Positions 3,293 through 24,330 of a stretch of 40,475 nt of DNA are shown in pieces; positions within the stretch are counted from its first letter, which is position 1, and each line of letters starts with the position of its first letter. Made by a program: the position numbers and the translations under genes. The DNA comes from Actinomycetospora sp. (lineage in GTDB: Bacteria > Actinomycetota > Actinomycetes > Mycobacteriales > Pseudonocardiaceae). Under the pieces are notes generated by a model, which saw only the letters and a program-made list of their open reading frames with translations, made no database searches and had not been told where the DNA came from. The DNA is taken from NCBI GenBank assembly GCA_029266415.1, contig JAQSWW010000008.1, forward strand, positions 1 to 40,475, given 5' to 3'.

Positions 3293-3351
3293 CCTCCTGG
3301 CGCGACGACGCGGGCGAGCGTAGATCGCCCGCCCGCGCCGGTCCGCCGGGG

Positions 3352-3642
3352 TCAGACCGTGCTCGGCGGCTCCGCGGGCCGGGCCACCGGGCCGGCGACA
3401 CCGTCGGCGCCGTCGGCGCCCTCCTCGGGCACCAGCGCCCACGCGGCCAGGTAGGCGATCAGACCCACCAGGTGCCCGAACACGGCCAGGAGTACCGCGA
3501 GGACACGCACGAGGTTCGGGTCGAGGCCGGTGCGGGCGGCGATGCCGCCGCAGACACCGGCGATCCAGCGGTCGCCGCGGCTGCGGCGGAAACCGAGGGC
3601 GGGGACGGACGGGGCGGCGGGCGTGGGCTGCGGGGTGGTCAT
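3352..3642 (-). CDS. PspC-domain membrane protein
   Basis: This 96-residue protein has a proline-rich cytoplasmic N-terminus and the PspC signature: FRRSRGDRWIAGVCGGIAAR, then LDPNLVRVLAVLLAVFG and a second hydrophobic segment ending in AWALVPEE. PspC domains are small membrane modules of envelope-stress systems; in actinobacteria many are free-standing and of unknown role. The ATG at 3642-3640 overlaps the TGA of the upstream tetR gene (ATGA), so the two are probably translationally coupled. The tail after VPEE is acidic and low-complexity. Confidence 0.88.
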   Translation of the reverse strand: MTTPQPTPAAPSVPALGFRRSRGDRWIAGVCGGIAARTGLDPNLVRVLAVLLAVFGHLVGLIAYLAAWALVPEEGADGADGVAGPVARPAEPPSTV

Positions 3643-4319
3643 GGCGTCGAGCCTGCCGCCGGCGGCGGCCCGGGACCTCCGGGTCGGACCCCCGTCTCCC
3701 CCGGATCCCGACCCCCATCCGGGGCCGGGGGTGCCTCCGGGGTCACCAGCCCGCCGACCTCGCCCAGGGTCGCGCTGATCGCCGTGGGGAGGTCGTCGGC
3801 GGTGCCGTCGAGGCAGCGGGTGAGCGCCTCGGCGAAGCACGCGACGACGACCGCCCCGTGCAGGCGGGCACGCTCGGGGGGCACGCCCCGCGCGCTCAGC
3901 TCGGCGGCCACCAGATACCGCCAGCCGTCCTGCTTGAGACGCTCGCGGGCCTGCAGCGCCGGCGTCGCCGCGATCACCGCGCCCCGCGCCGCGAACCGGG
4001 GCCAGTCGGCGGCCAGGACGGAGGCGACCTCGCGGGCCGCGACCCGCAGCGCCTCGGGCACCGAGCGGTCACGCGGTTGCGCGCGCAGCGAGTCGGCCAG
4101 CGCCGCGCGCATCGCGGCGTCGTCGGCGAAGAGGATGTCCTCCTTGTCGGCGACGTAGCGGTAGACGGTGCGCTCCCCCACCCCGGCCGCCCGGGCGACG
4201 TCGGCCATGGTCACCGCGTCGTAGCCGTCGCGGGCGAACAGGGCGAGCGCGGCGTCGACGATCGCGTCGCGCGTGCGCTGCTTCTTCTCCTCGCGCCACC
4301 CGGTGTTCACGGGAGACAT
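3639..4319 (-). CDS. TetR-family transcriptional regulator
   Basis: This 226-residue regulator has an N-terminal helix-turn-helix: RDAIVDAALALFARDGYDAV, MADVARAAGVGERTVYRYV, then ADKEDILF, the classic TetR pattern. The ligand domain is helical and the last ~35 residues are Gly/Pro-rich. It is divergent from an SDR gene across 47 bases that contain two GGCA-N5-TGCC palindromes, a likely operator, so self-control and control of the SDR are expected. It overlaps pspC by ATGA, which makes a tetR-pspC operon. The ligand is unknown. Confidence 0.9.
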   Translation of the reverse strand: MSPVNTGWREEKKQRTRDAIVDAALALFARDGYDAVTMADVARAAGVGERTVYRYVADKEDILFADDAAMRAALADSLRAQPRDRSVPEALRVAAREVASVLAADWPRFAARGAVIAATPALQARERLKQDGWRYLVAAELSARGVPPERARLHGAVVVACFAEALTRCLDGTADDLPTAISATLGEVGGLVTPEAPPAPDGGRDPGETGVRPGGPGPPPAAGSTP

Positions 4320-4366: not shown

Positions 4367-5209
4367 ATGCGGATGCTGATCACGGGGGCCACGCGGGGCC
4401 TGGGGCGGGCGACGGCCCGGGCGGCGGGCCGACGGGGCGCCGAGGTGCTGGTCACCGGACGCGACCCGGAGGCGGTCGCCCGGGTGGCGGCGGAGGTCGG
4501 TGGGCAGGGCCACGTGCTCGACCTCGCCGACCCGGCGGCCGTGCGTGCCGCGGTGCCCGAGCTGGGCGCGGTGGACGTCGTCGCCGCCAACGCCGGGCTG
4601 CAGATCCGGGGCGGGCCGACCACGACCGTCGACGGGGTCGAGGAGACCCTCGCGGTCAACGTGCTGGGCCACGTCGCCCTCGTCGACGCCCTGCTCGCCG
4701 GGCCGCGACCCCCGTCGCGCGTGGCGTTCCTCGGGTCGACCACGCACGACCCGGCCACCCCGACCGGCACCCCCGCCCCCGTGGAGAGCCCCGACCTCGG
4801 CGCGCTGGCCCGCGGCGAGCTCACCACCAGCGGGCCCCAGCGCTACGCCACCACCAAGCTGCACTGCACCGCGCTCGCCGGCGCCTACGCCCGCGAGCAC
4901 CCCGAGGTCCACTGGTCCTGCTTCGACCCGGGGCTGATGCCCGGCACCGGGCTGGCGCGGACCTACGGCCCGGTCGCGCGCCTGTTGTGGGCGACCGTGC
5001 TGCGCGGGGTGGCGGTGCTGCCGTTCGCCTCGACGCCGGCCCGGTCGGGGGACGCCCTCGCCCGCGTGCTGCTCGACGACCCCGCCCCGGGCGCGTCGGG
5101 AGCCGTCGTCGACTGGCGGCTGCGGCCCGGCGTCGTCTCCGCGCGGGCCGCCGACCCCGCGTTCGGCGACGCCGTGCTCGCCGCGGCCCGGGGCCTCGTC
5201 GCGGTCTGA
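4367..5209 (+). CDS. Short-chain dehydrogenase/reductase (SDR)
   Basis: This 280-residue SDR begins with the nucleotide-binding motif TGATRGLGRATARA and has NAG in VVAANAGL. The active-site serine region is FLGSTTHD and the catalytic YxxxK is YATTK. The layout is closest to the plant protochlorophyllide-reductase-like/retinol dehydrogenase-like group of bacterial SDRs (a Pro-Gly-Leu-type motif, DPGLMPGTGL, follows the catalytic site). The substrate is unknown. ATG 4367 is preferred over the earlier in-frame 4331 codon, which lies inside the palindromic operator. No clear ribosome site is seen, so a short-leader or leaderless transcript is possible. Expression is probably repressed by the divergent TetR. 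Confidence 0.88.
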   Translation: MRMLITGATRGLGRATARAAGRRGAEVLVTGRDPEAVARVAAEVGGQGHVLDLADPAAVRAAVPELGAVDVVAANAGLQIRGGPTTTVDGVEETLAVNVLGHVALVDALLAGPRPPSRVAFLGSTTHDPATPTGTPAPVESPDLGALARGELTTSGPQRYATTKLHCTALAGAYAREHPEVHWSCFDPGLMPGTGLARTYGPVARLLWATVLRGVAVLPFASTPARSGDALARVLLDDPAPGASGAVVDWRLRPGVVSARAADPAFGDAVLAAARGLVAV

Positions 5210-5291
5210 GGTCCGTTCGGTCCGGTTCACCCGCCGGAGCCGGGGCACCCTGCGGGACCGAGCCCGTCCACGCCCCCGCCCCGGGAGTCCC

Positions 5292-5741
5292 GTGTCCCCC
5301 TCGTCGAGCCCGTCGAGCCCTGCACCCCGCCGCCTCGCCGTCGTGCCGCCGCCCGCGGACGACGCCCTCGTGCGGTCCGCCGACGGGGGCGGGCCCGGCG
5401 GCCGGCCGGAGCCGTCGACGCGCGTGCGGGCGGTGGTCGACGAGCTCGTCGAGGCCGCGGTGACCATCGGCGAGGACCTCGAGCTGGTCGTCGAGGACAC
5501 CGTCGGCGAGGCCCTCGCCGCCGGGGAGCGGTCGTGGCGCGTGCTGCGCGCGGCGGCCCACCGCCTCGACGCGGGCCGCCCGCCCCTCCTGACCGCCGGC
5601 GAGGCGCTCGCCGCGCTCGGCGGGGAGGCCGCACGGGCGGTCACCGCCGTGGCCGTGACGTCGGGGTACGCCGGGCGCCACGCGAGCCGGCGGGCGGCCA
5701 CCGCGGCCGGCCGCATCGCCCTCGCCCTCCTCCGACCGTGA
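5292..5741 (+). CDS. Hypothetical protein
   Basis: A 149-residue protein of unknown function. After a disordered Ser/Pro-rich N-terminus (about 45 residues), the rest looks like amphipathic helices rich in Ala, Glu, Val and Arg (for example VVDELVEAAVTIGEDLELVVEDTV). It has no signal peptide and no membrane segment. The GTG start lacks a strong ribosome site. Codon use and the absence of a better frame on either strand support it as a real gene, but I recognise no domain. A 17-base palindrome overlaps its stop codon. Confidence 0.5.
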   Translation: MSPSSSPSSPAPRRLAVVPPPADDALVRSADGGGPGGRPEPSTRVRAVVDELVEAAVTIGEDLELVVEDTVGEALAAGERSWRVLRAAAHRLDAGRPPLLTAGEALAALGGEAARAVTAVAVTSGYAGRHASRRAATAAGRIALALLRP

Positions 5742-5750
5742 CTCACGGTC
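5734..5750. repeat. 17-base perfect palindrome over a stop codon
   Basis: GACCGTGA-C-TCACGGTC is perfectly symmetric with a single central base, and the TGA of the upstream gene (5739-5741) lies inside it. It could fold as a 7-bp hairpin in RNA, but no T-tract follows, so it may be either a weak terminator or a protein-binding site upstream of the 5930-6382 gene. Confidence 0.4.
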
Positions 5751-5929
5751 ACTCTTTCCGGGTGATCGCCCCCGTACTCACTCCTACGGACTAGCCTCTG
5801 CCTCGTGATCTGACTTACAGTGAGCGCCGCCGCGGGACACACCCGGCGGCGGCCACCACACAGATCCCGCGGGGGGCGGAGCGGCGCCGCGGCGCCGGCC
5901 CCTGACGACCCCGCGAGAAGGGGGTCGAC

Positions 5930-6382
5930 GTGCGAACGACCTATCGGGTGCTGGCGTGGATCCTCGCCCTGGAGGTGGTCGTCCAGGCCGCCGCCATCGC
6001 GTGGGCACTCTTCGGGCTGACCGCCTGGATCGACGGCGGCGGCGTCCTCGACGCCGCGGCCATCGAGGCCGAGGTGCAGTTCGACGGCGTCGTCGGCTTC
6101 ATGGTGCACGGCATGAACGGGACGATGATCGTGCCCGCTGTGGCGCTGCTGCTGCTGATCGTCTCGTTCTTCGCGAAGCTCCCCCGCGGGGTGACGTACG
6201 CGGCGGCCCTGTTCGTCATGGTCGTCGCACAGGTGGCGCTGGGCATCGTCGCGCACTCCCTGCCGTCGCTGGGCATGCTGCACGGCGCGCTCGCGCTGGC
6301 CATCCTCGTGACCGCCGTGCTCTCGGCCCGGCTCACCGCCACCCCGCGGACGGCGGTGCGCGAGCCGGTCGCGATGGCGTGA
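5930..6382 (+). CDS. Four-helix membrane protein, DUF6220-like
   Basis: A 150-residue integral membrane protein with four hydrophobic segments, near residues 8-32, 55-82, 88-112 and 115-135. Histidines sit at helix ends (MVHGMNG, IVAHSL, GMLHGALAL), together with a Gln in the third helix. This pattern resembles the DUF6220-type membrane proteins and is reminiscent of b-type haem-binding four-helix proteins, although haem binding is not shown. GTG 5930 follows GAGAAGGGGG. It lies 16 bases upstream of the multicopper oxidase, so the two are probably co-transcribed, which hints at a shared redox or copper role. Confidence 0.7.
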   Translation: MRTTYRVLAWILALEVVVQAAAIAWALFGLTAWIDGGGVLDAAAIEAEVQFDGVVGFMVHGMNGTMIVPAVALLLLIVSFFAKLPRGVTYAAALFVMVVAQVALGIVAHSLPSLGMLHGALALAILVTAVLSARLTATPRTAVREPVAMA

Positions 6383-6398
6383 GCGAGGACTGACCGAG

Positions 6399-7883
6399 AT
6401 GCTGCGGGCGAGGCGACGGCGGTGGCGTACCCGCATCCGGGCACGGACCCTGGTGGCCGTCGTCGCCGCGCTCGCGGTCCTGGTCCCGATCGGCTGGATG
6501 TGGACCGACAGCCTCGTCCCGTCGTCGTACTCGATGATGGACATGGGCACGCCGGACCTCGGCGGCGGACCCGGGGAGCACGCCGGGCACGCCACGACGG
6601 GACCCGCGGTCGACACCCTGCGCGAGCCGCCGGGGCCGGCCGACGTCGACGTCACCCTGGTGGCGCGCGCCGGTCGGGTCACGCTGCCCTCGGGGCGCGT
6701 CATCGACGGCTACAGCCTCAACGGCACCACGCCCGGCCCGGAGATCCGCGCGGTCGAGGGGCAGATGGTGCAGGTCCGCCTGGTCAACGCGGACGTGCCC
6801 GAGGGCGTCACCCTGCACTGGCACGGCTACGACGTGCCGGCCGGCGACGACGGCGTCGCCGGGGTGACCCAGGACGCCGTGCCCGTCGGCGGCTCGTTCG
6901 TCTACCGATTCCGCGCCGAGCAGGTCGGGACGTTCTGGTACCACTCGCACCAGGTCGCCGACCCGCAGGTGCGCGGCGGCCTGTTCGGCGCACTGGTGGT
7001 CACGCCCCGCGCGGGCCTGGGCGACACCGGCGACGTGCTGGCCGTGACGCACATGCACCAGGGCCGCCGGACGATCAACGGGTTCGACGGCGACGTGGCA
7101 GCCGCCGGGGCACCCGGGTCGCGGGTCCGCGTGCGCGTGGTCAACACCGACAACGGGCCGATCCAGGCCTGGGTCGGCGGCGCGCCCTACCGCCTGGTCG
7201 CGATCGACGGCACCGACGTCGTCGGCCCCACGCCCACCACCGACTCGCTGTCGATCACCGCCGGGGCCCGGGCCGACCTCGAGATCGACCTGCCCGCCGA
7301 CGGCGCGGGCGTGCGCGTGGAGCTCGGCGGGTCCGCGCTCACCTTCGGGCCGGCGCTGGCCCCGACCCCCCGCCCGGCCCGCCAGCTCGACCCCCTGACC
7401 TACGGCACGCCCGCCGCGCTCGGGTTCGACCCGGACGCCGCGGACCGCCGCGTCGACTACGTCATCGGGCGCCGCCCCGGCTTCGTCGACGGGCAGCCCG
7501 GGCTGTGGTGGACGGTCAACGGGAGCCTCTGGCCCGACGTGCCGATGTACGTGGTGCGCGAGGGGGACGTCGTGCGGATGCGCATCGACAACGCCAGCGG
7601 CGACCTGCACCCGATGCACCTGCACGGCCACCACGCCGTGGTGCTCGCCCGCGACGGCGTGCCGGCGACGGGCAGCCCGTGGTGGGTGGACAGCCTCGAC
7701 GCCCAGGACGGCCACACCTACGACATCGCGTTCGTGGCGGACAACCCCGGCCTGTGGATGGACCACTGCCACAACCTCGCCCACCCGGCCGAGGGGCTGA
7801 TGGCCCACCTCGTCTACGAGGGCGTGACCACGCCGTACCGGGTCGGCGAGGTGGGTGGTCACGCCCACAACGACCCCGAGTGA
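6399..7883 (+). CDS. Membrane-anchored three-domain multicopper oxidase
   Basis: This 494-residue laccase-type oxidase couples one-electron oxidation of a substrate to O2 reduction to water. A basic N-terminus and one hydrophobic helix (about 17-35) anchor it outside the membrane. A Met/His-rich stretch follows (SYSMMDMG, GEHAGHA). The four copper motifs are intact: HWH (140-142), HSH (182-184), HPMHLHGHH starting at 404, and HCHNLAHPAEGLM starting at 456, with Cys457 as the type 1 ligand. Three cupredoxin-like domains fit the length. The substrate could be Cu(I), Mn(II) or phenols; the Met/His segment leans towards copper handling, as inference. It follows the four-helix membrane gene. Confidence 0.92.
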   Translation: MLRARRRRWRTRIRARTLVAVVAALAVLVPIGWMWTDSLVPSSYSMMDMGTPDLGGGPGEHAGHATTGPAVDTLREPPGPADVDVTLVARAGRVTLPSGRVIDGYSLNGTTPGPEIRAVEGQMVQVRLVNADVPEGVTLHWHGYDVPAGDDGVAGVTQDAVPVGGSFVYRFRAEQVGTFWYHSHQVADPQVRGGLFGALVVTPRAGLGDTGDVLAVTHMHQGRRTINGFDGDVAAAGAPGSRVRVRVVNTDNGPIQAWVGGAPYRLVAIDGTDVVGPTPTTDSLSITAGARADLEIDLPADGAGVRVELGGSALTFGPALAPTPRPARQLDPLTYGTPAALGFDPDAADRRVDYVIGRRPGFVDGQPGLWWTVNGSLWPDVPMYVVREGDVVRMRIDNASGDLHPMHLHGHHAVVLARDGVPATGSPWWVDSLDAQDGHTYDIAFVADNPGLWMDHCHNLAHPAEGLMAHLVYEGVTTPYRVGEVGGHAHNDPE

Positions 7884-7926
7884 GATCACCGCGGGACGGA
7901 GGGATACTGGCCGGTAACCACGCGGT

Positions 7927-7946
7927 CCTCCCGGACCGCCGGGAGG
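7927..7946 (+). promoter_or_regulatory. Hairpin that hides the ribosome site of the 7956 gene
   Basis: CCTCCCGG-ACCG-CCGGGAGG forms a perfect 8-bp stem with a 4-base loop. Its 3' arm contains the GGGAGG that is the evident Shine-Dalgarno for ATG 7956. In the folded mRNA the site would be masked, so it may modulate translation; it may also be chance in such GC-rich DNA. Confidence 0.4.
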
Positions 7947-7955
7947 TGACCGACC

Positions 7956-8309
7956 ATGATCGCGACCACGGGGACCGCCCCGTCCTCCGGATCGCCCTGG
8001 CTGCTCCCCCACGCCACGGCGTGCGCAGAGGCCGTCGCCACGGCACTGGACCTGCTCGACACCGACGACGTGCGCGTCGAGCCCGACGGCGCCGGCTTCG
8101 CCCTGCGCGTGGAGTCCGACCCGCCGCGGGCGGTGCGCGCGGTGCGCTGGTCGCCGGACGCGGGGTGGGAGGCCACGTCCGACCCCGCCCGCCGACGGGC
8201 CCCGCGCTGGTGGGCACTCCCCGTCGAGATCGACGCCGACCCCCTCGCGCTGTGCGAGGTGCTGCGGGCGATGGCAGAGGGGACGCGGGCGCTCGGTCGG
8301 ACGGCGTAG
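7956..8309 (+). CDS. Hypothetical protein, possibly DUF6292-like
   Basis: A 117-residue soluble protein. After a short Ser/Gly leader, the core reads ACAEAVATALDLLDTDDVRVEPDG, then FALRVES and AVRWSPDAGWEA, and ends with a helix (PLALCEVLRAMAEGTRALG). The pattern (two short helices, a beta pair with W-x5-GWEA, a final helix) resembles small actinobacterial DUF6292-type proteins, but I am not sure. It starts at ATG behind GGGAGGTGAC. A strong hairpin at 8331-8361 follows, so it is probably a single-gene transcript. Confidence 0.65.
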   Translation: MIATTGTAPSSGSPWLLPHATACAEAVATALDLLDTDDVRVEPDGAGFALRVESDPPRAVRAVRWSPDAGWEATSDPARRRAPRWWALPVEIDADPLALCEVLRAMAEGTRALGRTA

Positions 8310-8330
8310 CGACCGGGGCCGCCCGGTCGA

Positions 8331-8361
8331 CGCCGGTGCGGGCCCCTCGTCCGCACCGGCG
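8331..8361 (+). terminator. Hairpin terminator after the 7956-8309 gene
   Basis: An 11-bp perfect stem (CGCCGGTGCGG / CCGCACCGGCG) with a 9-base loop, 21 bases after the stop codon. There is no T-tract, as is usual for actinobacterial hairpin terminators. Confidence 0.5.
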
Positions 8362-8514
8362 GTCCGGATCACGCAACGTACCGGCCGGTCACCTCGCCGT
8401 GAACCCGCGCGCCGACGGCGCCGTACGCACAAAGACGTACAGCGCTGCACCCCGCGCCGGTCCTAGCCTTCCGTCGGGGACGTCCGAAGCCATCGGACGC
8501 ACGGGGAGGGCACG

Positions 8515-8712
8515 ATGCCGGGCCGATCCGACGACCACCTCATCGTGGAGCCACGCATCCGCCGCATCGTCCGGCGGCCGGTGACGCCGACGGTGCCCGC
8601 GCCGCGGCGCGAGGAGACGCCGGCGCCGCACGTGCCCGCACCGCGCCGCCCGCACCGGGAGGGCCACCTCGGCCACACCCCGGTCGCCGCACGCCCCCAC
8701 CGGGACGCCTGA
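8515..8712 (+). CDS. Small Arg/Pro/His-rich hypothetical protein
   Basis: A 65-residue basic protein (RIRRIVRRPVTP, PAPRRPHREGH). It has no hydrophobic segment and no known domain. ATG 8515 follows GGGAGGGCACG, a credible ribosome site. It is convergent with the kinase gene, the stop codons being 15 bases apart. The composition could suit nucleic-acid binding or a disordered linker protein, but in DNA this GC-rich basic low-complexity frames also arise by chance. Confidence 0.4.
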   Translation: MPGRSDDHLIVEPRIRRIVRRPVTPTVPAPRREETPAPHVPAPRRPHREGHLGHTPVAARPHRDA

Positions 8713-8727
8713 GCGACGCCCGGGGCC

Positions 8728-10137
8728 TCAGCCGCCGTTGCCGCGGCCGCGCCCGCGACCCCGGTCGCCACCGCGGTCGTCGTCGCGGTCGCCGCCACGC
8801 CCTGCCCGGGCCTGGTCGCGCCAGCGCTCCCAGAGGCGGTCCCACGACGCCCGGGCCTGCCGCGACGCCGCGCGCCCGCGCCGCGCCTCGGACTCCGACG
8901 CGACCTCCTCCATCGGCGTCGACGCGGCCGTGGTGCGCGACGAGGGGCTCGCCGCCGACAGCGGCGCCGCGGGGATCACGGGCGGCGCGGCCACCGGGAC
9001 GGGCAGCGCGGCCAGGGGCACGCCGGCCGCCGGGGCCGCGGCCGGCGCCGGGGCGACGACGTCCGACGGCGCGCCGAGCACCCCGGCCGCGCCGGCGACA
9101 CCGAGCACCCCGACCAGTCCGGCGCCCACCGCGACGGCCCGGCGCCCGGGCCGCCACCCGCGCACGGCGTGGGCGCCGGTGGTCGTCCCGGGACGGGTCC
9201 GGGGCGGCGCCGCGGGCACCGCGGGCGCCGCGAGCGTGATCGGCCCGGTGCGGGGCTCGGGGTCAGCGGCGCTCCGGAGCTCGGCCTCGCCCAGCAGCCG
9301 CGCGGCCTCGGCGGCGGCGGGCCGGTGCGCGGGGTCGGCGTCGAGCAGGGTCTGCAGCAGCGGGGTCAGGTGGCCCGCCCGCTGGGTGGGGTGGACGACG
9401 CCGGTGGCCACCCGTGAGAGCACCTCGAGGGCGTTGCCGCCCCCGCCCGTGGGCGGGCGGCCCTCGAGCGCGGTGTACAGCGTGGCGCCGAGGGAGAACA
9501 CGTCGGCGGCCGCGGTGGCCACGCCGCCGCGGGCGAGCTCCGGGGCCATGAAGTGCGGCGTCCCGGCCACGAGATGGTCGGCGGCGGCCGGGTCGGTGTC
9601 GACGACCGCGATGCCGAAGTCGGTGACCGTCACGACGTCGTCCGCGCCGATCATGATGTTGGCGGGCTTCACGTCGCGGTGGACGATCCCGCGCTCGTGC
9701 ATCGCCGCGAGGCCCTCGGCGATCTGCGCGCCGATCGCGGCCACCCGGGCGGGCGCCAGCGGCCCCTCGCGCTCGAGCAGATCGGCCAGCGACGGCGCCG
9801 CGACGTACTCCATGACCAGACAGACCTCGCCGTCGAGCGCGACCATGTCGAAGATCGCGGCCAGCCGCGGGTGGTGCAGGCGGGCCGCGACCCGGCCCTC
9901 GCGGTGCGCCCGGTCGCGGACCAGGCGGGCGCGTGCGGCGTCGAGGGCCCGCCCGCCGTGCAGGCGCTTGATCGCGACGTCCCGGTCGAGCAGCTCGTCG
10001 TGGGCGCGCCACACCGCCGCCGAGCCGCCGCGGCCCACAGGGGCGAGCAGGAGGTACCGACCCGCCACCCGGCGGCCGGGCTCGATGGTGGCCTGCCCGT
10101 CACCGAGGGCGTTCGGCACCGAGGTCGGTGTCGACAT
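8728..10137 (-). CDS. Membrane-anchored Ser/Thr protein kinase (PknB-like, no PASTA)
   Basis: This 469-residue Hanks-type kinase has all the key parts: glycine loop GRGGSAAVW (35-43), ATP-binding Lys57 in VAIK, HRDVKPAN (153-160), DFG (173-175) and APE (198-200). A juxtamembrane Pro-rich linker leads to one transmembrane helix (about 334-355). The outer part (~110 residues) is Ala/Pro-rich and then Arg/Asp/Gly-rich, without PASTA or other sensor repeats, so what it senses is unclear. The frame is open further upstream, but ATG 10137 follows GGGAGGAGGGGC and the kinase domain begins just after. It is divergent from the desaturase gene. Confidence 0.92.
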   Translation of the reverse strand: MSTPTSVPNALGDGQATIEPGRRVAGRYLLLAPVGRGGSAAVWRAHDELLDRDVAIKRLHGGRALDAARARLVRDRAHREGRVAARLHHPRLAAIFDMVALDGEVCLVMEYVAAPSLADLLEREGPLAPARVAAIGAQIAEGLAAMHERGIVHRDVKPANIMIGADDVVTVTDFGIAVVDTDPAAADHLVAGTPHFMAPELARGGVATAAADVFSLGATLYTALEGRPPTGGGGNALEVLSRVATGVVHPTQRAGHLTPLLQTLLDADPAHRPAAAEAARLLGEAELRSAADPEPRTGPITLAAPAVPAAPPRTRPGTTTGAHAVRGWRPGRRAVAVGAGLVGVLGVAGAAGVLGAPSDVVAPAPAAAPAAGVPLAALPVPVAAPPVIPAAPLSAASPSSRTTAASTPMEEVASESEARRGRAASRQARASWDRLWERWRDQARAGRGGDRDDDRGGDRGRGRGRGNGG

Positions 10138-10376
10138 GCCCCTCCTCCCGCTGGGTTCGTGATCGGTCGTGCTGGTCCCGCTCCGTGCACGGCGCGGTCC
10201 GCTCCGTGACGGCCTATCGCGGGTCGTGACCATTCCGTTACCGAGACCTGACGGCATCCTCGCTGACTCCTCCTGACGAGGGACACGCGACCCACCCGGA
10301 CCCGTGGTGACCGGCGCCACCTCACGGGCGGTGCCCGGGGACACAGCGATCACCGACCCCCGCGGCACCACGACGC

Positions 10377-10407
10377 GGTACCGTCGGTATCGGGTACTTC
10401 AGGTACC
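10377..10407 (+). promoter_or_regulatory. Four GGTAYY boxes in the desaturase leader; rest of 10138-10447
   Basis: The 310-base gap between the kinase and desaturase genes holds GGTACC (10377), GGTATC (10386), GGTACT (10393) and GGTACC (10402), starts 9, 7 and 9 bases apart. They can be read as two tandem 15-base units, GGTACCGTCGGTATC and GGTACTTCAGGTACC, sitting 40 to 70 bases before the desaturase ATG. A lipid-responsive repressor such as a FasR/DesT-type TetR protein would fit, as inference. The rest of the gap (10138-10376) shows no gene and no convincing promoter; it must hold the kinase promoter. Confidence 0.5.
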
Positions 10408-10447
10408 TCTCGACGCACCCCGCCCCCCTCTGGAGGGAAACACCACC

Positions 10448-11644
10448 ATGGCCATCTCGGACGTCAAGGAGTTCACGCACCTGAGCGAGGCGGACGTCGC
10501 CGCGATCGGGCGCGACTTCGACGCGATCCGCCGCGACGTCGAGGCGTCGCGCGGCGAGGACGACGCGGCCTACATCCGGAGCGTCATCGCCCTGCAGCGC
10601 CGGCTGGAGATCGGCGCGCGGGTGGCGCTCGTGGGCAGCGTCCTGCCGCCGCTGTGGATCGCGGGCACCGCCGCCCTGGCCGCCTCCAAGATCATCGAGA
10701 ACATGGAGATCGGCCACAACGTCATGCACGGCCAGTGGGACTGGATGAACGATCCGGAGATCCACTCGGCGCAGTGGGAGTGGGACAACGTCTGCCCCGC
10801 CGAGCAGTGGAAGCACTCCCACAACTACCTGCACCACACGTACACGAACGTCATCGGCAAGGACAAGGACGTCGGGTACGAGATCCTCCGCGTCTCCTCC
10901 GACCAGCCGTGGCACCCCTACTACCTGGGCCAGCCGCTCTACAACGCGCTGCTGATGTTCCTGTTCCAGTGGGGCGTCGCGCTGCACGACCTCGACATCG
11001 ACGGCGCCGCGAAGCTCGACGCCGACCCCGAGGAGATGAAGGCCAAGCTGCGCCAGATCGGGCGCAAGGCCGGCAAGCAGGCGCTCAAGGATTACGTGTT
11101 CTTCCCGGCCCTGTCCGGCCCGTTCTTCCCGGCCACGATCGCCGCGAACGCGACGGCCAACCTCGTCCGCAACGTGTGGTCCTACGCGATCATCTTCTGC
11201 GGGCACTTCCCCGACGGGGCCGAGGTGTTCACCGAGGACGAGCTCGAGGGCGAGACGTGGGGCGAGTGGTACCTGCGCCAGCTGCTCGGCTCGGCGAACT
11301 TCTCCGGCGGCAAGCTCATGCACCTCATGAGCGGCAACCTCGGCTACCAGATCGAGCACCACCTGTTCCCGGACCTGCCGTCGAACCGCTACCCGGAGAT
11401 CGCGGTCAAGGTGCGCGAGATCTGCGAGCGCTGGGACCTGCCCTACACGACCGGGCCGTTCCCGACGCAGTTCTGGCAGTCGACGCGGTCGATCTGGAAG
11501 CTCTCGCTCCCGGTGGCCGGCGAGCTCAAGCGCTTCGTCGACCGCCTGACCGGCCGCGAGAAGACCGCCCCGGCGACGGCCGCCGACGTCCCGGCCCCCC
11601 GCACCGAGCCGTCGGCCCGGGTCGCGGAGCCGGTCGCCGCGTGA
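10448..11644 (+). CDS. Membrane acyl-lipid/acyl-CoA desaturase (DesA3-like)
   Basis: This 398-residue di-iron membrane desaturase introduces a double bond in a fatty acyl chain using O2 and an electron donor. The three histidine boxes are intact: HNVMH (90-94), HSHNYLHH (123-130) and QIEHH (301-305). Hydrophobic segments lie near 57-80 and 175-190, and near 245-270. The closest match I know is the mycobacterial stearoyl-CoA desaturase DesA3. There it partners with an oxidoreductase gene next door; here no reductase is adjacent. ATG 10448 follows CTGGAGGG. The Ala/Pro-rich tail is probably disordered. Tandem GGTAYY boxes upstream suggest regulated expression. Confidence 0.92.
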   Translation: MAISDVKEFTHLSEADVAAIGRDFDAIRRDVEASRGEDDAAYIRSVIALQRRLEIGARVALVGSVLPPLWIAGTAALAASKIIENMEIGHNVMHGQWDWMNDPEIHSAQWEWDNVCPAEQWKHSHNYLHHTYTNVIGKDKDVGYEILRVSSDQPWHPYYLGQPLYNALLMFLFQWGVALHDLDIDGAAKLDADPEEMKAKLRQIGRKAGKQALKDYVFFPALSGPFFPATIAANATANLVRNVWSYAIIFCGHFPDGAEVFTEDELEGETWGEWYLRQLLGSANFSGGKLMHLMSGNLGYQIEHHLFPDLPSNRYPEIAVKVREICERWDLPYTTGPFPTQFWQSTRSIWKLSLPVAGELKRFVDRLTGREKTAPATAADVPAPRTEPSARVAEPVAA

Positions 11645-11661
11645 GGTCGACGACGGCGGGC

Positions 11662-12516
11662 TCAGCCGGGCAGCGTCTCGCCGCCGGTCGGGGCGAGCAC
11701 CTCGCCGCTGTAGTACGACGAGAGCCGGTCGGACGCGAAGAACACGTACGACGGCGCGATCTCGTCGGGCGACGCGGCGCGGCCGATCGGGGCCTGCGTC
11801 CCGAACGAGTCCACCTTCTCCTCGGGCATCGTCGCCGGGATCAGCGGCGTCCACACCGGGCCCGGCGCCACGCAGTTGACGCGGATGCCCTGCGGGAGCA
11901 GCTGCTGGGACAGCGACATCGTCAGCGCGTGCACCGCGCCCTTGGCCGCCGAGTAGTCCAGCAGCGACTTGTTGCCGCGCAGGCCGTTGACCGACCCGGT
12001 GTTGATGATCGCCGACCCCTCGCCGAGGTGCGGCAGGGCGTCCTTGGTGATCCAGAAGAAGCTCGACACGTTGACGGCGAACGTGCGCTGCCACTGCTCG
12101 TCGGACAGCTCGTCGGGGGTGCTCACCGGCGTCTGCACGGCTGCGTTGTTGACCACGATGTCGAGCCCGCCGAGCTCGTCGACGGTCCGCTGCACGAGAC
12201 GTCGACAGTGGTCGCGGTCGGCGATGTCGCCGGGCAGCCGCACGCAGCGCCGGCCCTTGGCCTCGACGAGGCCCTGGGTGTGCGTCGCGTCGTCGCCCTC
12301 GGACAGGTAGCTGATGGCGACGTCGGCGCCCTCCTCGGCGAAGGCGACCGCCACGGCGCGCCCGATGCCGGAGTCACCGCCCGTGATGAGCGCCCGCCGG
12401 CCGGCGAGCAGGTCGCGGCCGACGTAGCCGCGCATCTCGTCGTTCGGCTCGGGGTCCATCGCCCCGGTGCGGCCGGGGTAGGTCTGTTCCTGCGGAGGGG
12501 GCTGCTCGGAGGTCAT
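11662..12516 (-). CDS. SDR oxidoreductase, YghA/general stress protein 39 type
   Basis: A 284-residue SDR with the N-terminal extension typical of the YghA/GSP39 group (PPPQEQTYPGRTGAMDPEPN). The cofactor motif is TGGDSGIGRAVA, NNAA is present, and the catalytic residues are Ser in NTGSVNG and YSAAK. The C-terminus has the Pro-Gly-Pro loop APGPVWTPL. These enzymes reduce aldehydes or ketones with NAD(P)H, often in stress conditions; the true substrate is unknown. ATG 12516 follows TCGGAGGTC region sequence. It converges on the desaturase gene (17-base gap). Confidence 0.92.
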   Translation of the reverse strand: MTSEQPPPQEQTYPGRTGAMDPEPNDEMRGYVGRDLLAGRRALITGGDSGIGRAVAVAFAEEGADVAISYLSEGDDATHTQGLVEAKGRRCVRLPGDIADRDHCRRLVQRTVDELGGLDIVVNNAAVQTPVSTPDELSDEQWQRTFAVNVSSFFWITKDALPHLGEGSAIINTGSVNGLRGNKSLLDYSAAKGAVHALTMSLSQQLLPQGIRVNCVAPGPVWTPLIPATMPEEKVDSFGTQAPIGRAASPDEIAPSYVFFASDRLSSYYSGEVLAPTGGETLPG

Positions 12517-12607: not shown

Positions 12608-13120
12608 CTAGCGCAAAGCGGCGATCTTGTCGAGCACGGTCTTGCGGTTCTTCGTGCGGCGCTCGTAGGCGTCGACCTTGCCGAGGTCGGTGTCGGAGAG
12701 CCCGTCGAGCTTCACCACGACGTCGGTGGCGTTCAGGTCGTCGTAGCCCTGAATGGGCAGGTCGTCCTCCACCGAGACCGCGCCCTTGGCCTCGCCCTCG
12801 GCGGTGGCCACGCCGGGCACGCGGCGCGCCTGGTCGGCGGCGGCGCCGGCCGCCCCGCCGATGCCGGAGCCGAGGCGCTGGAGCAGCGCCGGGAAGGCTT
12901 CGGCGAGCTCGCGGGTGAACTGGGCCTGGGCGCGGGCGAACGCCTGCACCCACTCCGCGGTGCGGTTGCCGGCGGCCTCCTCGGCCTCGGCGACGTTCTC
13001 CAGCAGCTCCTTGTACGCGCGCAGCGACTCCTCGCCGCCCTGGCGGGCCCGGCTCACGATCTGCTCGTTCAGGCTCCGGACCTGCTCGACCACCTGCTCG
13101 ACCCTCGGGTTGCCCGCCAT
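12608..13120 (-). CDS. Helical protein with lipid-droplet/phasin-like C-terminal module
   Basis: A 170-residue protein with no signal peptide. Residues 1-80 form long amphipathic helices (VEQVVEQVRSLNEQIVSRA, then QAFARAQAQFTRELAEA) like phasins and granule-surface proteins. The C-terminus carries DLPIQGYDDLNATDVVVKL, then GLSDTDLGKVDAYERRTKNR. The same module ends the 19498-20499 protein and is seen in actinobacterial proteins annotated as lipid-droplet-associated. ATG 13120 follows GAGGAGGAGCAG, the strongest ribosome site near. It is divergent from the formate dehydrogenase operon. A role on storage granules or membranes is inference. Confidence 0.75.
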   Translation of the reverse strand: MAGNPRVEQVVEQVRSLNEQIVSRARQGGEESLRAYKELLENVAEAEEAAGNRTAEWVQAFARAQAQFTRELAEAFPALLQRLGSGIGGAAGAAADQARRVPGVATAEGEAKGAVSVEDDLPIQGYDDLNATDVVVKLDGLSDTDLGKVDAYERRTKNRKTVLDKIAALR

Positions 13121-13265
13121 CTGCTCCTCCTCGATCGGTGCTTCGTCGCACTTCGGTGTGCCTCGTTTCCCAGGCACCGATGCGCCCAAACAGGTGAGCG
13201 TCCCGGACGCTCCGGACGCGGACGGGCACCGGGACACCGATTGTTCCGGAGACCAGGACGAGCTG

Positions 13266-13295
13266 TGTGACGCGCCTCGCAGCGGCACCTACAGT
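13266..13295 (+). promoter_or_regulatory. Candidate promoter of the formate dehydrogenase operon
   Basis: TGTGAC (13266-13271) and TACAGT (13290-13295) are separated by 18 bases and lie 38 bases before the ATG of the catalytic subunit, resembling a housekeeping-type actinobacterial promoter. A good ribosome site (GGGAGG) follows near 13320. This is a judgement by eye. Confidence 0.35.
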
Positions 13296-13333
13296 GGTGA
13301 CGACGGCAACACCGTCCGTAGGGAGGCACGACC

Positions 13334-15322
13334 ATGCGCAAGCCCCGGCACGTCCGACTCACCGAGCCCCTGGTCCGCGAGAACGGCGAGCTGCGGCCGG
13401 CCACGTGGGACGAGGCGCTCGCCCGCGCCGCGGCCGGGCTGCGCGGCGTCCCCGCCGCCGAGTTCGGCATGTTCAGCTGCTCGAAGGCCACCAACGAGAT
13501 GAACTACGCCGCGGAGAAGTTCTCGCGGGTGGTGATGGGCAGCAACAACGTCGACAGCTGCAACCGCACTTGACACGCTCCCAGCGTCGTCGGTCTGACG
13601 ACGGTGTTCGGTGCCGGCGGCGGCACCTCCGCCTACGTGGAGGCGGAGCACGCCGACCTGCTCGTGCTGTGGGGATCCAACGCGCGGGAGACCCACCCGA
13701 TCTTCTTCCACCACGTGCTGCAGGGGCTGCGCAACGGCGCCCGGATGTACTCGGTCGACCCGCGGTACACGTCCACGGCGCGCTGGGCCGACGCGTGGCT
13801 CGGGCTCGACGTGGGCACCGACATCGCGCTGGCCAACGCGATCGGCCGCGAGATCATCCACGCGGGCCTGGTCAACCGCCCGTTCGTCGACCGCGCCACC
13901 TCCGGCTTCGACGAGTACGCCGCGACCGTCGAGCCGTACACGCTCGAGCGGGCCGAGGAGATCACCGGCGTGCCCGCCGCGACGATCCGCGAGCTCGCGC
14001 ACGCCTACGCCCGCGCCGACCGCGCGCAGATCTGCTGGACGCTCGGCATCACCGAGCACCACAACGCCGCCGACTACGTCTTCGCGCTGATCAACCTGGC
14101 GCTGCTCACCGGCCACGTCGGCCGCTACGGCTCGGGCCTGGTGCCCCTGCGCGGGCAGAACAACGTCCAGGGCGGCGGCGACATGGGCGCCATCCCGGCC
14201 AAGCTGCCCGGCGGCTACGACGTCGGCGACGAGAAGGCCCGCGCGCGGTTCGCGCAGGTCTGGGGCACCGACGACTACCCGCGCGAGCCGGGCATGCACC
14301 TGTCCCAGATGTTCGAGGCGATGGAGCGCGGCGAGCTCAAGGCCCTGTACTGCATCGGGGAGAACCCGGCCGAGTCCGAGGCCAACGCCACCCACGCCCG
14401 CCACCTGCTGGAGGGCCTGGACACACTGATCGTCCAGGACATCTTCCGCACGGCCACGGCGGAGCTGGCCGACGTCGTGTTCCCGGCGACGGCCGACTGG
14501 TGCGAGTACGAGGGCACGGTCACCAACTCCGAGCGGCGCGTGCAGCGCGTCCGCAAGGCGATCGAGCCGCCGGGGCAGGCGCGCCCGGACACCCACATCA
14601 TCAGCGCGCTGGCCACCGAGCTGGGCCACGACTGGGGCCAGCCCACGGCCGAGCAGGTGTGGGACGAGCTGCGCTCGGTGTCGCTGAACTGGCACGCCGG
14701 CATGAGCTACGCCCGCCTCGACGCGCTCGGGGGGCTGCAGTGGCCGTGCCCGTCGGAGGACCACCCGGGCACGCCGCTGATGCACGCGCGCCTGTGGTCC
14801 GACGACCCCGACGAGCGCGGACGGCCCGCGCCGTTCACGCCCGTGGAGCACGTCGCGCCGGTCGACGCGCTCGACGACGAGTACCCGATCCGCCTCACCA
14901 CCGTCCGGCTGCTCGACGCCTACAACTCCGGGGTGCAGTCCGGCGGCTACTCGTCGCCGCTGCGCGTCCGCGAGTCGCTGCGCATCGACGCCCAGGACGC
15001 CGACCGCCTCGGCATCGCCGACGGCGAGCGGGTGCGCGTGGTGTCGCGGCGCGGGGCGGTGGAGGCGCCGGTGGGGATCGATCCCTCGCTGCGACCGGGC
15101 CTCGCGTCGTTCACCCCGCACTTCACCGAGGAGGTCGACGTCAACGTGCTGACCAACGACGCCTGGGACCCCAAGTCGGGGACCTCGGAGTTCAAGGCGA
15201 CGGCGATCCGGGTGGAGAAGCTGCGGGACGCGGAGCATCGAGGGGAGCACGCCGATGGGGGAGCCGGACCATCTGGTGTCGTGGCCGCGGAGAGCCGTCC
15301 GATGCCGGTGGCGGGGGCCTGA
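13334..15322 (+). CDS. fdhA: Formate dehydrogenase catalytic subunit, selenoprotein (TGA = Sec80)
   Basis: This is one 662-residue enzyme whose frame is interrupted by TGA at 13571-13573. The context NVDSCNRT-TGA-HAPSVVGL matches the active site of formate dehydrogenases (Sec or Cys followed by His, then P/S-V-AGL), and the frame continues unbroken after it, so TGA is read as selenocysteine 80. A SECIS hairpin follows. The Mo/W-bis-MGD domain shows WGSNARETHP, GQNNVQGGGDMG, FRTATAELADVVFPA and a C-terminal dinucleotide-binding domain (LDAYNSGVQSGGYSSPLR). The usual N-terminal [4Fe-4S] domain is missing; it is fused to the third gene. The enzyme oxidises formate to CO2, or the reverse. It is first in an operon with the two electron-transfer subunits. 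Confidence 0.93.
13574..13606 (+). promoter_or_regulatory. Bacterial SECIS element of fdhA
   Basis: Right after the TGA, CGTCGTC (13585-13591) and GACGACG (13597-13603) pair around the loop GGTCT (13592-13596); two more pairs lie below a mismatch. From memory, E. coli fdhF also has 18 bases between UGA and an apical GGUCU loop. Spacing and loop are therefore the same, while the stem bases differ. SelB would bind this loop to deliver Sec-tRNA. Confidence 0.85.
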
Positions 15323-15325
15323 CGC

Positions 15326-17283
<1,958 letters not shown>

Positions 17284-17287
<4 letters not shown>

Positions 17288-18498
17288 CGGACACGCAGCG
17301 ATCGGTGACCCCGGCGGACCCGGCCTCGGGCAAGGGCCCGGCCGGTGACGGCGGCGGCTCCGCGGGACCGCCGGACGGCCAGCCGCTCGACGGCGCCAGC
17401 GAGGCCGCCGAGGGCGCCGCGGTCCCCGGCGTCGACGCCTCGGGTCCACCGCCCGGCGAGCGCACCGACGGCGACACCCGTCCCGCGGCCCCGGTCGGGC
17501 CGACGGTGGCCGATCCGGTCGCGCCGCACCGCGGTGCCGAGGAGCGCGTCAGCACCGGGGCGGTGATGCTCGGGACGATCCGGCGCCGCGTCTCGCTGAC
17601 CCTGGACGGCCGCGAGGTGCGGGTGCCCGAGGGCGCCACGATCCTCGACGCCCTGCACGACGAGGGCACGCCCGCGCAGGCCGACACCCCCACGATCTGC
17701 TGGGCGCCCAACATGGACCCGATCAACGCGTGCCGCGTGTGCGTGGTCGAGGTCGAGGGCTCCCGGGCGCTCGTCCCGTCGTGCGCGCGCCGGTGCGAGG
17801 ACGGCATGGAGGTCAAGACCGACACCGAGAAGGTCCGCCACAGCCGGCGCATGGTGCTGGAGCTGCTCGGGTCGTCGGTGGCCATGGACCGCGCGAGCGC
17901 CGACGTGCAGCGCTGGATGACCGACTACGGCGTCGACACGGCGCGCTACGGCCCGCCCGCTCCCCCGGCCGCGGCCGGCGAGCGCGACCGCCGCCACCCG
18001 GGCCACCACCACGCCCCCGACGGCGCCACCGCGGCCACCGTGCACCAGCCGGTCAAGATCGACAACGACCTCTACGTGCGCGACTACTCCCGCTGCGTCC
18101 TCTGCTACAAGTGCGTCAACGCGTGCGGCAGCGACGCCCAGTTCACGTTCGCGATCACCGCGGCCGGACGCGGGTTCGACGCCCGCATCGCCACGGAGTA
18201 CGACGTCACGCTGCCGGAGTCGGCGTGCGTGTACTGCGGCAACTGCATCGGCGTCTGTCCCACCGGGGCGCTGATCTCGCGCAGCGAGTACGACCTGCGC
18301 GAGGCCGGCGAGTGGCACCCCGAGGAGGAGACGGTGACCACCACCATCTGCTCGTTCTGCGGTGTCGGCTGCAACCTCGAGCTGCACGTCCAGCAGAACC
18401 AGATCGTCAACGTCACGAGCCCCGCCGACCACTCGGTGACCCACGGGCACCTGTGCATCAAGGGCCGCTTCGGGTTCCAGCACGTCCAGAACCTGTGA
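17284..18498 (+). CDS. Formate dehydrogenase iron-sulfur subunit carrying the displaced FdhA [4Fe-4S] domain
   Basis: This 404-residue protein begins with ~95 disordered residues. A NuoG-like [2Fe-2S] domain follows (C139, C150, C153, C167), then a His/Pro-rich linker and two ferredoxin-type [4Fe-4S] sets (C271-C281 and C315-C325). The C-terminus (353-404) has CSFCGVGC, then LCIKGRFGF. That is the cluster domain that normally opens the molybdopterin subunit, including the electron-relay Lys393. The protein stops exactly where the fdhA product begins in sequence logic. The His-Cys cluster usually found between the [2Fe-2S] and ferredoxin parts is absent. ATG 17284 overlaps the upstream TGA. 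Confidence 0.92.
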
Positions 18499-18644
18499 GC
18501 CACGCGGGTCAGGTGCGGTGATCGTTCGGCCGAACCCGCGCGGCCGTCGGGTGCCACTCTCGGCGTGGTCCTTCTCGGGGAGCGTCCTCTGCTGGTTGGG
18601 TCCGGAGGAACCAGTGTGTCCATCGACGACGAAGGAGGCACGCC

Positions 18645-18872
18645 GTGGCGAAGACGCAGGACGGCGACCGCACCGAGCAGGTCCTGGCGGGCCTGCACCA
18701 GCTCGTCGAGGCCGGCCGGGTGGAGGACGTCGAGGCCGTGCTGACCACCCTCATCGAGAGCGAGCCCGCGCAGGACCCGACCGTCGAGGAGCGCGAGACC
18801 CGCTCGTACGCCGAGGGCATGCGCGACGGGATCGCGCTCGCCCGGGCCGCCACCGGCTCGGACGACAGCTGA
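18645..18872 (+). CDS. Small hypothetical protein downstream of the formate dehydrogenase operon
   Basis: A 75-residue acidic helical protein (EQVLAGLHQLVEAGRVEDVEAVL, then ETRSYAEGMRDGIALARA). It has no cysteines, so it carries no metal cluster. GTG 18645 follows GAAGGAGG. It lies 146 bases after the third formate dehydrogenase gene, so it may or may not share that transcript. I recognise no family. The 146-base gap has no gene; a short inverted repeat (CTGGTT / AACCAG) lies near 18590-18613. Confidence 0.6.
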   Translation: MAKTQDGDRTEQVLAGLHQLVEAGRVEDVEAVLTTLIESEPAQDPTVEERETRSYAEGMRDGIALARAATGSDDS

Positions 18873-18939
18873 GCCGCACCGCCGACGGCGTCCGCGCGGT
18901 CCACCAGCGGGCCGCGACCCACTCACGAGGAGCCATCAG

Positions 18940-19428
18940 ATGACCGCGGCCGTGGCCGACGACCGTCCCGCCGCCCCGCCCCTCGCGGAGGCCGCGCCCG
19001 GTCCCGCGCCGGTCGCCGGGACGGGCTCGGCACCCGCACCGGCAGCGCCGCCGTCGGCGTCGGACCGTCTCCGCGCCCTGGCGGTGACGATGATCGACCG
19101 CCTGGCCGCGGCGGCCACGGCCAAGGTGGAGGAGGTGTCCGACCGGCTCGGCGACATGGCCGCGGACGCCGCGAAGGGCGCGCTCGACGGGGCGGGCGCC
19201 GGCAAGGGCGTCTTCGCCAACGCCGCGATCCAGGGTGCGCTCGCCAAGCTGCAGGGCCGCAACCCCGTCTGGGCGGCGATCAAGGGCGGGGTGTCGGCGA
19301 TGAGCCCGGGGACCAAGGCGCTCCTGGGGCTGTTGCTGATCCTGGTCGCGGTGCTCTCGCCGGTGCTGCTGATCGTGCTGGCGCTGGTGCTGCTGGTCGC
19401 CGCGATCGTGGGCGCGGTCCGCAGCTGA
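18940..19428 (+). CDS. Hypothetical membrane protein with C-terminal hydrophobic hairpin
   Basis: A 162-residue protein with three parts: a Pro/Ala-rich disordered N-terminus (~40 residues), an amphipathic helical middle (RLRALAVTMIDRLAAAATAKV and onward), and a very hydrophobic C-terminus (about 125-160) long enough for two membrane passes. It is followed by a strong hairpin shared with the convergent 19498-20499 gene. ATG follows CACGAGGAGCC. No known family. Its position next to a lipid-droplet-like protein suggests membrane or granule association, as inference. Confidence 0.65.
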   Translation: MTAAVADDRPAAPPLAEAAPGPAPVAGTGSAPAPAAPPSASDRLRALAVTMIDRLAAAATAKVEEVSDRLGDMAADAAKGALDGAGAGKGVFANAAIQGALAKLQGRNPVWAAIKGGVSAMSPGTKALLGLLLILVAVLSPVLLIVLALVLLVAAIVGAVRS

Positions 19429-23328: not shown

Positions 23329-24330
23329 GTGCCCGTCCTGCCCCGCGCCCGCGGCCCGGTCTCGGCCGCCGTGCTCGACGTCCTCGCCGGCCGCGCCGCG
23401 GCCGCGGACCTCGCCGGCGCCGTCGGGGACCTCGCCGGTGTCGACCCCCTCGGCGACGACCTCCAGCTCGCGCTCTACGCCTGTTACGAGCTGCACTACC
23501 GCTCGTTCGACGGCGTCGCCGACGCCCTCGAGTGGGACCCCGACCTGCTCGCCCTGCGCGCCCGGCTCGAGGCGCCGTTCCTCGACGCCGTCCGCGCCCG
23601 GGTCGACGGCGGCGACGACGTCGAGGCCACCGTGGAGGCCCTGCTCGTGGAGCCGGTCGAGGGGTCGGGCCCGTCGTGGCACCTCCTGCGCGAGGGTGAG
23701 CGCTGGCAGCTCGACGAGTACGTCGCCCTGCGCTCGCTCTACCACCTCAAGGAGGCCGACCCGCAGGCGTGGGTGATCCCGCGGCTCGACGGCGTCGCGG
23801 GCCGCGCCAAGGCCTCGCTGATGACCGTCGAGCACGACGAGTACGGCGCCGGGCGACCCGAGCGCGTCCACGCGCGCATCTACGCCGAGATGATGGAGGG
23901 CCTCGGGCTCGACACCACCTACGGCGCCTACCTCGACGTCGCGCCCGCGCCCGTCCTCGCGACCGTCAACATCATGTCGCTGTTCGGGCTGCACCGGCGG
24001 TGGCGCGGCGCCTCGGTGGGCCAGTTCGCGCTCATCGAGATCACGTCGCCGCCCGGGGCCGCGCGCCTCGTCTCGGCGATCGAGCGCCTCGGCCTGCCCG
24101 AGCGGGTCACCGAGTTCTACGCCGAGCACGTCGAGGCCGACGCCGTGCACGAGCAGCTCGTGCGCAAGGACCTGCTCGCGAGCCTGCTCGAGCGCGAGCC
24201 CGAGCTGGCCGCCGACGTCGTCCTCGGCCTCCAGGCCTCGACGGTGCTCGAGGACCTGCTGGCCGACTACCTCGTGACCTGCTGGTCGGCCGGCGCCTCG
24301 TCGCTCGTCGCGGAGCGTTCGGCGGCCTGA
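23329..24330 (+). CDS. Iron-containing redox enzyme family protein (haem-oxygenase-like di-iron fold)
   Basis: This 333-residue all-helical protein resembles the actinobacterial iron-containing redox enzyme family, which has the haem-oxygenase-like fold. Candidate metal ligands are in YACYELHYRSF, VEHDEYGAG, FALIEIT and YAEHVEADAVHEQL. Relatives oxidise amino acids or lipids with a di-iron centre; the substrate here is unknown. GTG 23329 follows CTGAGGAGC. Its last 64 bases overlap the 3' end of the convergent CDGSH gene, an iron-sulfur protein often found next to this family, though usually not tail-to-tail (from memory). Confidence 0.8.
   Translation: MPVLPRARGPVSAAVLDVLAGRAAAADLAGAVGDLAGVDPLGDDLQLALYACYELHYRSFDGVADALEWDPDLLALRARLEAPFLDAVRARVDGGDDVEATVEALLVEPVEGSGPSWHLLREGERWQLDEYVALRSLYHLKEADPQAWVIPRLDGVAGRAKASLMTVEHDEYGAGRPERVHARIYAEMMEGLGLDTTYGAYLDVAPAPVLATVNIMSLFGLHRRWRGASVGQFALIEITSPPGAARLVSAIERLGLPERVTEFYAEHVEADAVHEQLVRKDLLASLLEREPELAADVVLGLQASTVLEDLLADYLVTCWSAGASSLVAERSAA

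Follow-up and report, generated by a model that had tools for sequence, protein, structure and literature searches.

The gene at positions 13,334 to 15,322 of the 40,475-nucleotide stretch from a soil bacterium analyzed here (the window) is, judged from its sequence, a real selenoprotein gene. Its product is very probably the catalytic chain of a selenocysteine (Sec) formate dehydrogenase (FDH) that is cytoplasmic, most likely depends on NAD+, and is orthologous to FDH3 of Actinomycetospora chiangmaiensis. In the proposed mechanism SelB and a Sec-tRNA(UCA) would read the UGA at 13571 as Sec, guided by the hairpin directly after it. Sec80, His81, and Arg273 would lie at the Mo/W-bis-MGD site where formate is oxidised, and electrons would pass to a [4Fe-4S] cluster near the cofactor that is carried on a separate polypeptide, FdhC (which has the conserved Lys393), from where other Fe-S clusters would relay them to the FMN in FdhB and finally to NAD+. 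Insertion of Sec in this strain, assembly of the subunits, the electron path, and the acceptor are what we infer, the NuoE-like and NuoF-like domains being what points to NAD+. Table 1 lists the features of the window together with two loci from relatives.

Table 1. Positions of features in the window and, where a locus is named, in that locus
Feature	Position	Strand	Basis or context
NAD synthase with carbon-nitrogen hydrolase domain	1232-3718	-	Pfam
Multicopper oxidase	6399-7883	+	Pfam
Fatty-acid desaturase	10304-11644	+	Pfam
Likely ribosome-binding site AGGGAGG	13320-13326	+	7 nt upstream of ATG; by eye
fdhA (FdhA3 type), molybdopterin-binding catalytic chain, 662 residues with predicted Sec80, without N-terminal [4Fe-4S] domain	13334-15322	+	TIGR01591; Molybdopterin, Molydop_binding; solved FDHs
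UGA codon for selenocysteine, residue 80	13571-13573	+	alignment to 1aa6 Sec; TGA in 79/80 named loci
SECIS hairpin region, alignment columns 7-44	13577-13614	+	aligned TGA genes
SECIS upper stem-loop 13586-13602, loop GGUCU	13592-13596	+	loop begins 18 nt past UGA
fdhB, NuoE-like [2Fe-2S] domain fused to NuoF-like FMN/NADH-binding subunit	15326-17287	+	2Fe-2S_thioredx, Complex1_51K, SLBB, NADH_4Fe-4S
fdhC, [2Fe-2S] and [4Fe-4S] domains and alpha-subunit Fe4S4 domain (missing N-terminal half)	17284-18498	+	TIGR01591, Fer2_4, Fer4, Molybdop_Fe4S4, FdsA 24-302
Haem-oxygenase-like iron redox enzyme	23329-24330	+	Pfam
GHMP/galactokinase-type kinase	25324-26796	-	Pfam
Tandem Sec/Cys catalytic copies, Actinoallomurus iriomotensis	L140 7001-10931 / L240 7262-11201		operon with fdhB, fdhC, fdhD
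Broken Sec copy immediately preceding an intact Cys copy, followed by fdhB, fdhC, fdhD	L236 (G1243) 8572-11706 (minus strand)		

The open frame of 662 residues contains a single in-frame TGA, taken as residue 80, within the motif CNRT-U-HAPSV, and the coordinates, TGA position, motif, and frame length all agree with the preliminary description of this DNA. The standard code divides the frame into ORFs of 79 amino acids (13334-13573) and 572 amino acids (13604-15322), as that description had anticipated for automatic annotation, but a call of two pieces or a pseudogene does not always result, the FdhA3 orthologue WP_084681743.1 being given at its full read-through length of 640 amino acids (PMC7176365 Table 1). 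GC3 is 0.97 on either side of the TGA and 0.73 across the 33 bases from the TGA to the start of the second ORF. E. coli FdhF (1aa6) and 9t1s_L both have selenocysteine (shown as X) at the position aligned with residue 80, and His81 and Arg273 (in RGQNNVQG), which we take to be catalytic residues, are invariant columns among 13 aligned homologues. A TGA occupies the codon of residue 80 in 79/80 named loci, these loci being the best 80 of at least 590 matches in GTDB genomes, and the remaining one (L098) ends before residue 80. Homologues align on both sides of the TGA and have Sec or Cys at this position, contrary to one of the outcomes that the preliminary description named as refuting, and the alignment to the Sec of FdhF upholds the earlier assignment of an active-site Sec followed by His, with GC3, family match, and conserved TGA exceeding chance. 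A pseudogene or sequencing error, in which the TGA truly ends translation or is a misread codon and the 79-residue piece is the sole product, would fit the frame broken by the standard code and an assembly (4.73 Mb) that is a draft of 306 contigs and 84.5% complete. This explanation is rejected as highly improbable because the TGA is conserved across genomes, in the named loci and in three other genomes of the order, while GC3 remains 0.97 past the TGA, the SECIS is conserved and covarying, and the sel genes are present.

The hairpin just 3' of the UGA corresponds to the SECIS element of bacterial selenoproteins, with a strong upper and a weak lower stem. The SECIS alignment comprises 80 TGA genes (the window gene and 79 others, 71 distinct sequences), and the loop GGUCU lying 18 nt past the UGA is invariant in 80/80, a distance inside the 16-37 nt range given for SECIS loops (PMC10778597). 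All six pairs of the upper stem are intact in 79/80 genes, L120 being the exception, and covariation is seen at columns 20-28, which occur as C-G, U-A, or U-G, and at columns 19-29, which occur as G-C with one A-U. Over the 13-pair structure 91.0% of cells are paired compared with 89.3% in shuffles, 31 cells have both sides changed compared with 11.8, and the covariation score is 0.147 compared with 0.115 (0/500 shuffles as high in each case), whereas further pair types are not in excess (11 compared with 10.4, 231/500 shuffles) and slid partners are only 27.8-66.6% paired. In the lower stem pair 15-33 fails in 46/71 distinct sequences and pair 12-36 in 21/71. Much of the upper-stem pairing comes from protein conservation alone, mean pairing being 99.7% in Sec rows, 73.3% in Cys rows, and 75.9% in the outgroup; all six upper pairs are present in 101/102 distinct Sec sequences compared with 4/48 distinct Cys sequences. 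The codon pair GGT-CTG is found in 121/121 TGA rows (a set that includes the broken remnant L219_b3 and some rows seen twice) compared with 2/54 Cys rows of the same clade, L026 and L219, and GGT elsewhere makes up 9.2% of glycine codons in 109 Sec genes and 0/50 of the other glycine codons in the window gene. L026 (G079) has a TGC codon followed by a fully paired upper stem in a genome that retains SelA and tRNA-Sec, and its stem-loop is likely a remnant SECIS. An Rfam scan of the window gave no matches.

All of selA, selB, selC, and selD, the presence of which the preliminary description had named as a check, are found in the source genome. Contig C127 carries the tRNA-Sec gene at 5822 (73.3 bits, anticodon TCA), SelA (309.5 bits), and the SelB domains (12676-14559), with SelD located on C292 (394.4 bits) and FdhD on C153 (239.1 bits). 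The tRNA-Sec model gives weak signals in many genomes used as controls, and the gathering score is reached by the C127 match alone. Near-cognate suppression, by which the UGA would be decoded as an amino acid other than Sec, is extremely unlikely given this complete machinery and the SECIS, and given that this very catalytic residue is where Sec and Cys alternate. A second TGA gene (L010) is also present on C127, with a frame at 4371-9251 and the TGA at 6543, and encodes an FdnG-like formate dehydrogenase adjoining selC-selA-selB; GGTCTG occurs 18 nt past its TGA, the same distance as in the window gene, and the product is likely a second selenoprotein.

The read-through protein matches TIGR01591 (Fdh-alpha) with 628.8 bits over residues 7-627 and profile positions 52-672 of 672, and as the match begins at position 52 the N-terminal Fe-S domain of ordinary FdhA is absent from the gene. 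Profile positions 1-49 match fdhC (48.7 bits), and the one-chain score of fdhA falls below the curated equivalog cut-off of 666.25 bits; for these reasons fdhA is filed as the catalytic part and not as the whole of Fdh-alpha. The earlier naming of the gene as a formate dehydrogenase is supported overall, with the correction that it encodes no more of the catalytic subunit than its molybdopterin half. Aligned with FdsA (6tg9_A, 958 amino acids) the two genes tile the chain, fdhC covering residues 24-302 and fdhA residues 308-934, and the same tiling is seen with 9wxb_B; FdhC Lys393 (LCIKGRF) aligns with CVKGRF of FdsA. Three distant relatives in the order sample (L056-L058) have the Fe-S part directly before the molybdopterin part, fused in open frames of 896-1010 amino acids. 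An N-terminal Fe-S domain hidden upstream of the ATG is ruled out, the Fe-S half being found in fdhC, and because the open frame is 666 codons compared with a match of 662 residues, an in-frame stop lies a few codons upstream of the ATG. What is a single alpha subunit in FdsA thus appears to come here from two genes, in the order catalytic part, FdhB, and Fe-S part, whose products would assemble into one FdsA-type unit.

The best solved-structure matches of fdhA are FdhF of the hydrogen-dependent CO2 reductase (7qv7_S, the top score), methanogen FdhA-type chains, and E. coli FdhF. Such a top-scoring relative, and the fact that family membership fixes neither the electron acceptor nor the direction, would allow a molybdopterin enzyme of this type that uses a different substrate or acceptor, such as an FDH linked to ferredoxin or NADP, or a CO2 reductase. 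This is unlikely, as TIGR01591 is the best family by far, a NuoE-NuoF fusion is present in the operon, and the orthologue is linked to formate removal (PMC7176365), all of which favor the NAD+-dependent formate dehydrogenase.

The earlier view that selenoproteins are uncommon in aerobic high-GC actinobacteria is weakened by an even phylum sample of 396 Actinomycetota genomes, 43 of which have a close relative (E <= 1e-200) with at least one TGA in 38/43 matches; residue 80 was checked in 29 besides that of the window and is Sec in 26 and Cys in 3. Sec users are reported as 40.4% aerobic and 35.8% anaerobic (PMC5029168). The order sample of 397 genomes contains 278 with an FDH match at E <= 1e-80, mostly distant, and 13 at or above about 58% identity, among which residue 80 is TGA in 4 (the source genome G000, G022, G267, and G011) and Cys in 9, with SelA and tRNA-Sec found in 4/4 TGA genomes compared with 3/9 Cys genomes. 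A close relative is present in 25/394 genomes of the class sample, 2 being Sec (the source genome and G796) and 23 Cys; tRNA-Sec, sought in these 25 genomes, was found in 4/23 Cys-only genomes and in G1108, which has Sec and Cys copies, and was not found in the TGA genome G796 (80% complete, 450 contigs). Combined, tRNA-Sec occurs in 5/6 TGA genomes compared with 7/32 Cys-only genomes. In the family of Actinoallomurus 46/150 genomes have a match, and 30 loci divide into 10 Sec and 20 Cys. The samples overlap, the tree set having 11 pairs of identical rows.

By title the named loci (the best 80 of at least 590, which give no prevalence since they were chosen by likeness to the Sec protein) comprise 56 Actinomycetota, 8 Chloroflexota, 13 belonging to eight other phyla, and 3 whose titles give no phylum. 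The relatives listed include records titled Chloroflexi, Dormibacterota, Acidobacteria, and Eremiobacterota, and as many records are MAGs the phyla may include binning errors. The one-strand order of the catalytic gene (A), the NuoEF gene (B), and the Fe-S gene (C) is conserved in 69 of these best 80; nine of the other 11 end first (contig or locus), and L133 and L138 are without B and C within 7 kb downstream. The A-B spacing exceeds 2 kb in seven of the 69 ordered loci. The catalytic gene and fdhB are 2 to 4 kb apart in L127, L131, L136, L141, L149, L150, and L046, several of them Chloroflexota-titled; the intervening ORFs of the Chloroflexi-titled L127, L131, and L136 belong to mixed families (polyketide-cyclase-like, large secreted-type) or to none, and the 2.4 kb of L046 contains only opposite-strand or unlikely ORFs. 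The nearest relatives among the matches listed are from Actinomycetospora, with A. cinnamomea 95% identical over 628 columns. A plasmid search (E <= 1e-100) returned 175 records, all below 60% identity, and the close clade was not found on plasmids there. Pseudonocardia parietis has two copies of the Sec operon (L078 and L080) about 380 kb apart on one contig.

A quick ML tree of 181 rows, with SH-aLRT support only, places the 53 Cys rows as a single group (support 99) nested in 119 Sec rows, so that one change is enough, and the Cys rows of an earlier tree containing 13 of them likewise form one group inside the Sec forms. In Actinoallomurus iriomotensis (L140, the same locus as L240) A-Sec, A-Cys, B, C, and fdhD follow in series and the two A copies are 81% identical. 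In L236 the first part of the Sec remnant before the Cys copy shares 93-94% identity with the Sec copy of Actinoallomurus; the remnant has lost two internal segments, about 89 and 700 bp long in the Sec gene, and has a changed base in its SECIS stem. The L236 genome, G1243, has a contig of 7.85 Mb in a genome of 9.5 Mb, and another genome, G1200 (L237 and L239), has the Sec operon on one contig and the Cys A gene with part of B on another. Read directly, the Cys copies would have arisen by duplication and a switch to Cys, after which the Sec copy decayed and then the sel genes were lost. The Actinoallomurus Cys copy is placed at the unresolved base of the Cys clade in the tree with 13 Cys rows and inside the clade in the tree with 53, and because these inner forks are weak (83-85) the tandem may either go back to an early duplication that has been retained or have formed when a Cys copy was inserted later beside the Sec copy. 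A recoding of Cys codons to Sec, which is reported in Aeromonas salmonicida (PMC10778597), was considered for the genomes bearing tRNA-Sec and rejected, the anticodon being TCA in 12/12 tRNA-Sec genes examined, seven of which are from Cys-only genomes (G282, G118, G079, G943, G960, G753, and G881).

The widest interpretation, to which we give an even chance, describes a widespread and ancestrally Sec-using FDH whose alpha subunit is split, with the halves reversed around fdhB and the Sec chain lacking an Fe-S cluster of its own, and of which one actinobacterial branch moved from Sec to Cys by duplication within the operon. Its stages, covered jointly with the split subunit by that same even chance, would be Sec only, the Sec/Cys tandem (L140/L240), a broken Sec copy before an intact Cys copy (L236), and Cys only with the sel genes often gone. 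Seven Sec-to-Cys events and none in reverse, some with a remnant SECIS, are reported for FdhA (Zhang et al. 2006, PMC1794560). The Cys clade resembles these as a Sec-to-Cys event and differs in that Sec and Cys forms also stand in tandem in one operon, with a broken Sec remnant beside the Cys copy in one relative.

The enzyme itself is of a published kind, and the window gene adds one more species to a known selenoenzyme whose Sec clade is common in soil Actinomycetota and also occurs in records titled as other phyla. Two aspects merit further attention: the split subunit, as part of an enzyme in which electrons leaving Mo would have to cross between two polypeptides to reach the first Fe-S cluster, and the staged Sec-to-Cys changes, as a natural series for studying the replacement of a selenoenzyme by a Cys form and the subsequent loss of sel genes. 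Open-licence PMC papers, mostly surveyed as listings, yielded no description of the split alpha subunit or the tandem Sec/Cys operon, which does not imply absence from print. The ORFs just past the operon (18518-18943 and 18940-19428) have no Pfam or NCBIfam match.

The closest known system is the FDH3 operon (FdhA3/FdhB3/FdhC3) of the cultured soil strain A. chiangmaiensis DSM 45062, described in 2020 through selenium-dependent formate removal and proteomics (PMC7176365). That organism is reported to have three Sec-FDHs and accumulated formate without selenite and hardly any with it, so that the selenium dependence belongs to formate removal by cells with all three enzymes and not to FDH3 singly (PMC7176365). 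FdhA3, FdhB3, and FdhC3 (640, 614, and 316 amino acids) were all found in the proteome, FDH3 was predicted to be cytoplasmic and NAD+-dependent, and FdhA3 was termed selenocysteine-containing, with bSECISearch used (PMC7176365). FdhC3 is named the "gamma subunit" and the main text contains neither "iron-sulfur" nor "N-terminal", and on these grounds the split alpha subunit was not seen described in that paper (PMC7176365). The locus of that A. chiangmaiensis strain (L095) has ORFs of exactly 640/614/316 amino acids in the same order, the same TGA codon, and 74% identity to the window gene. The two operons agree in gene order, Sec codon, gene lengths, and clade, and by the tree belong to the same genus, the difference being that the window is from another species.

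E. coli FdhF (formate dehydrogenase H, 1aa6/1fdo) is part of another complex and shares with the window gene the Sec, the adjacent His, the RGQNNVQG segment, and a SECIS directly past the UGA. FdhF bears its own N-terminal [4Fe-4S] domain, and the alignment to the window gene begins at FdhF residue 61. The structures 6tg9 and 6tga, which we take to be the NAD+-dependent FdsABG-type FDH of Rhodobacter capsulatus, have in common with the operon a Moco chain, a [2Fe-2S]/[4Fe-4S] region, and NuoE-like and NuoF-like parts, and the residue of FdsA aligned with the Sec of the window gene is presumably of the Cys type. The full FdsA, FdsB, and FdsG domain set is thus present in one operon and is partitioned differently among the genes; FdsA is a single chain there and corresponds to two genes here, whereas the NuoE-like and NuoF-like parts are joined here in one gene.
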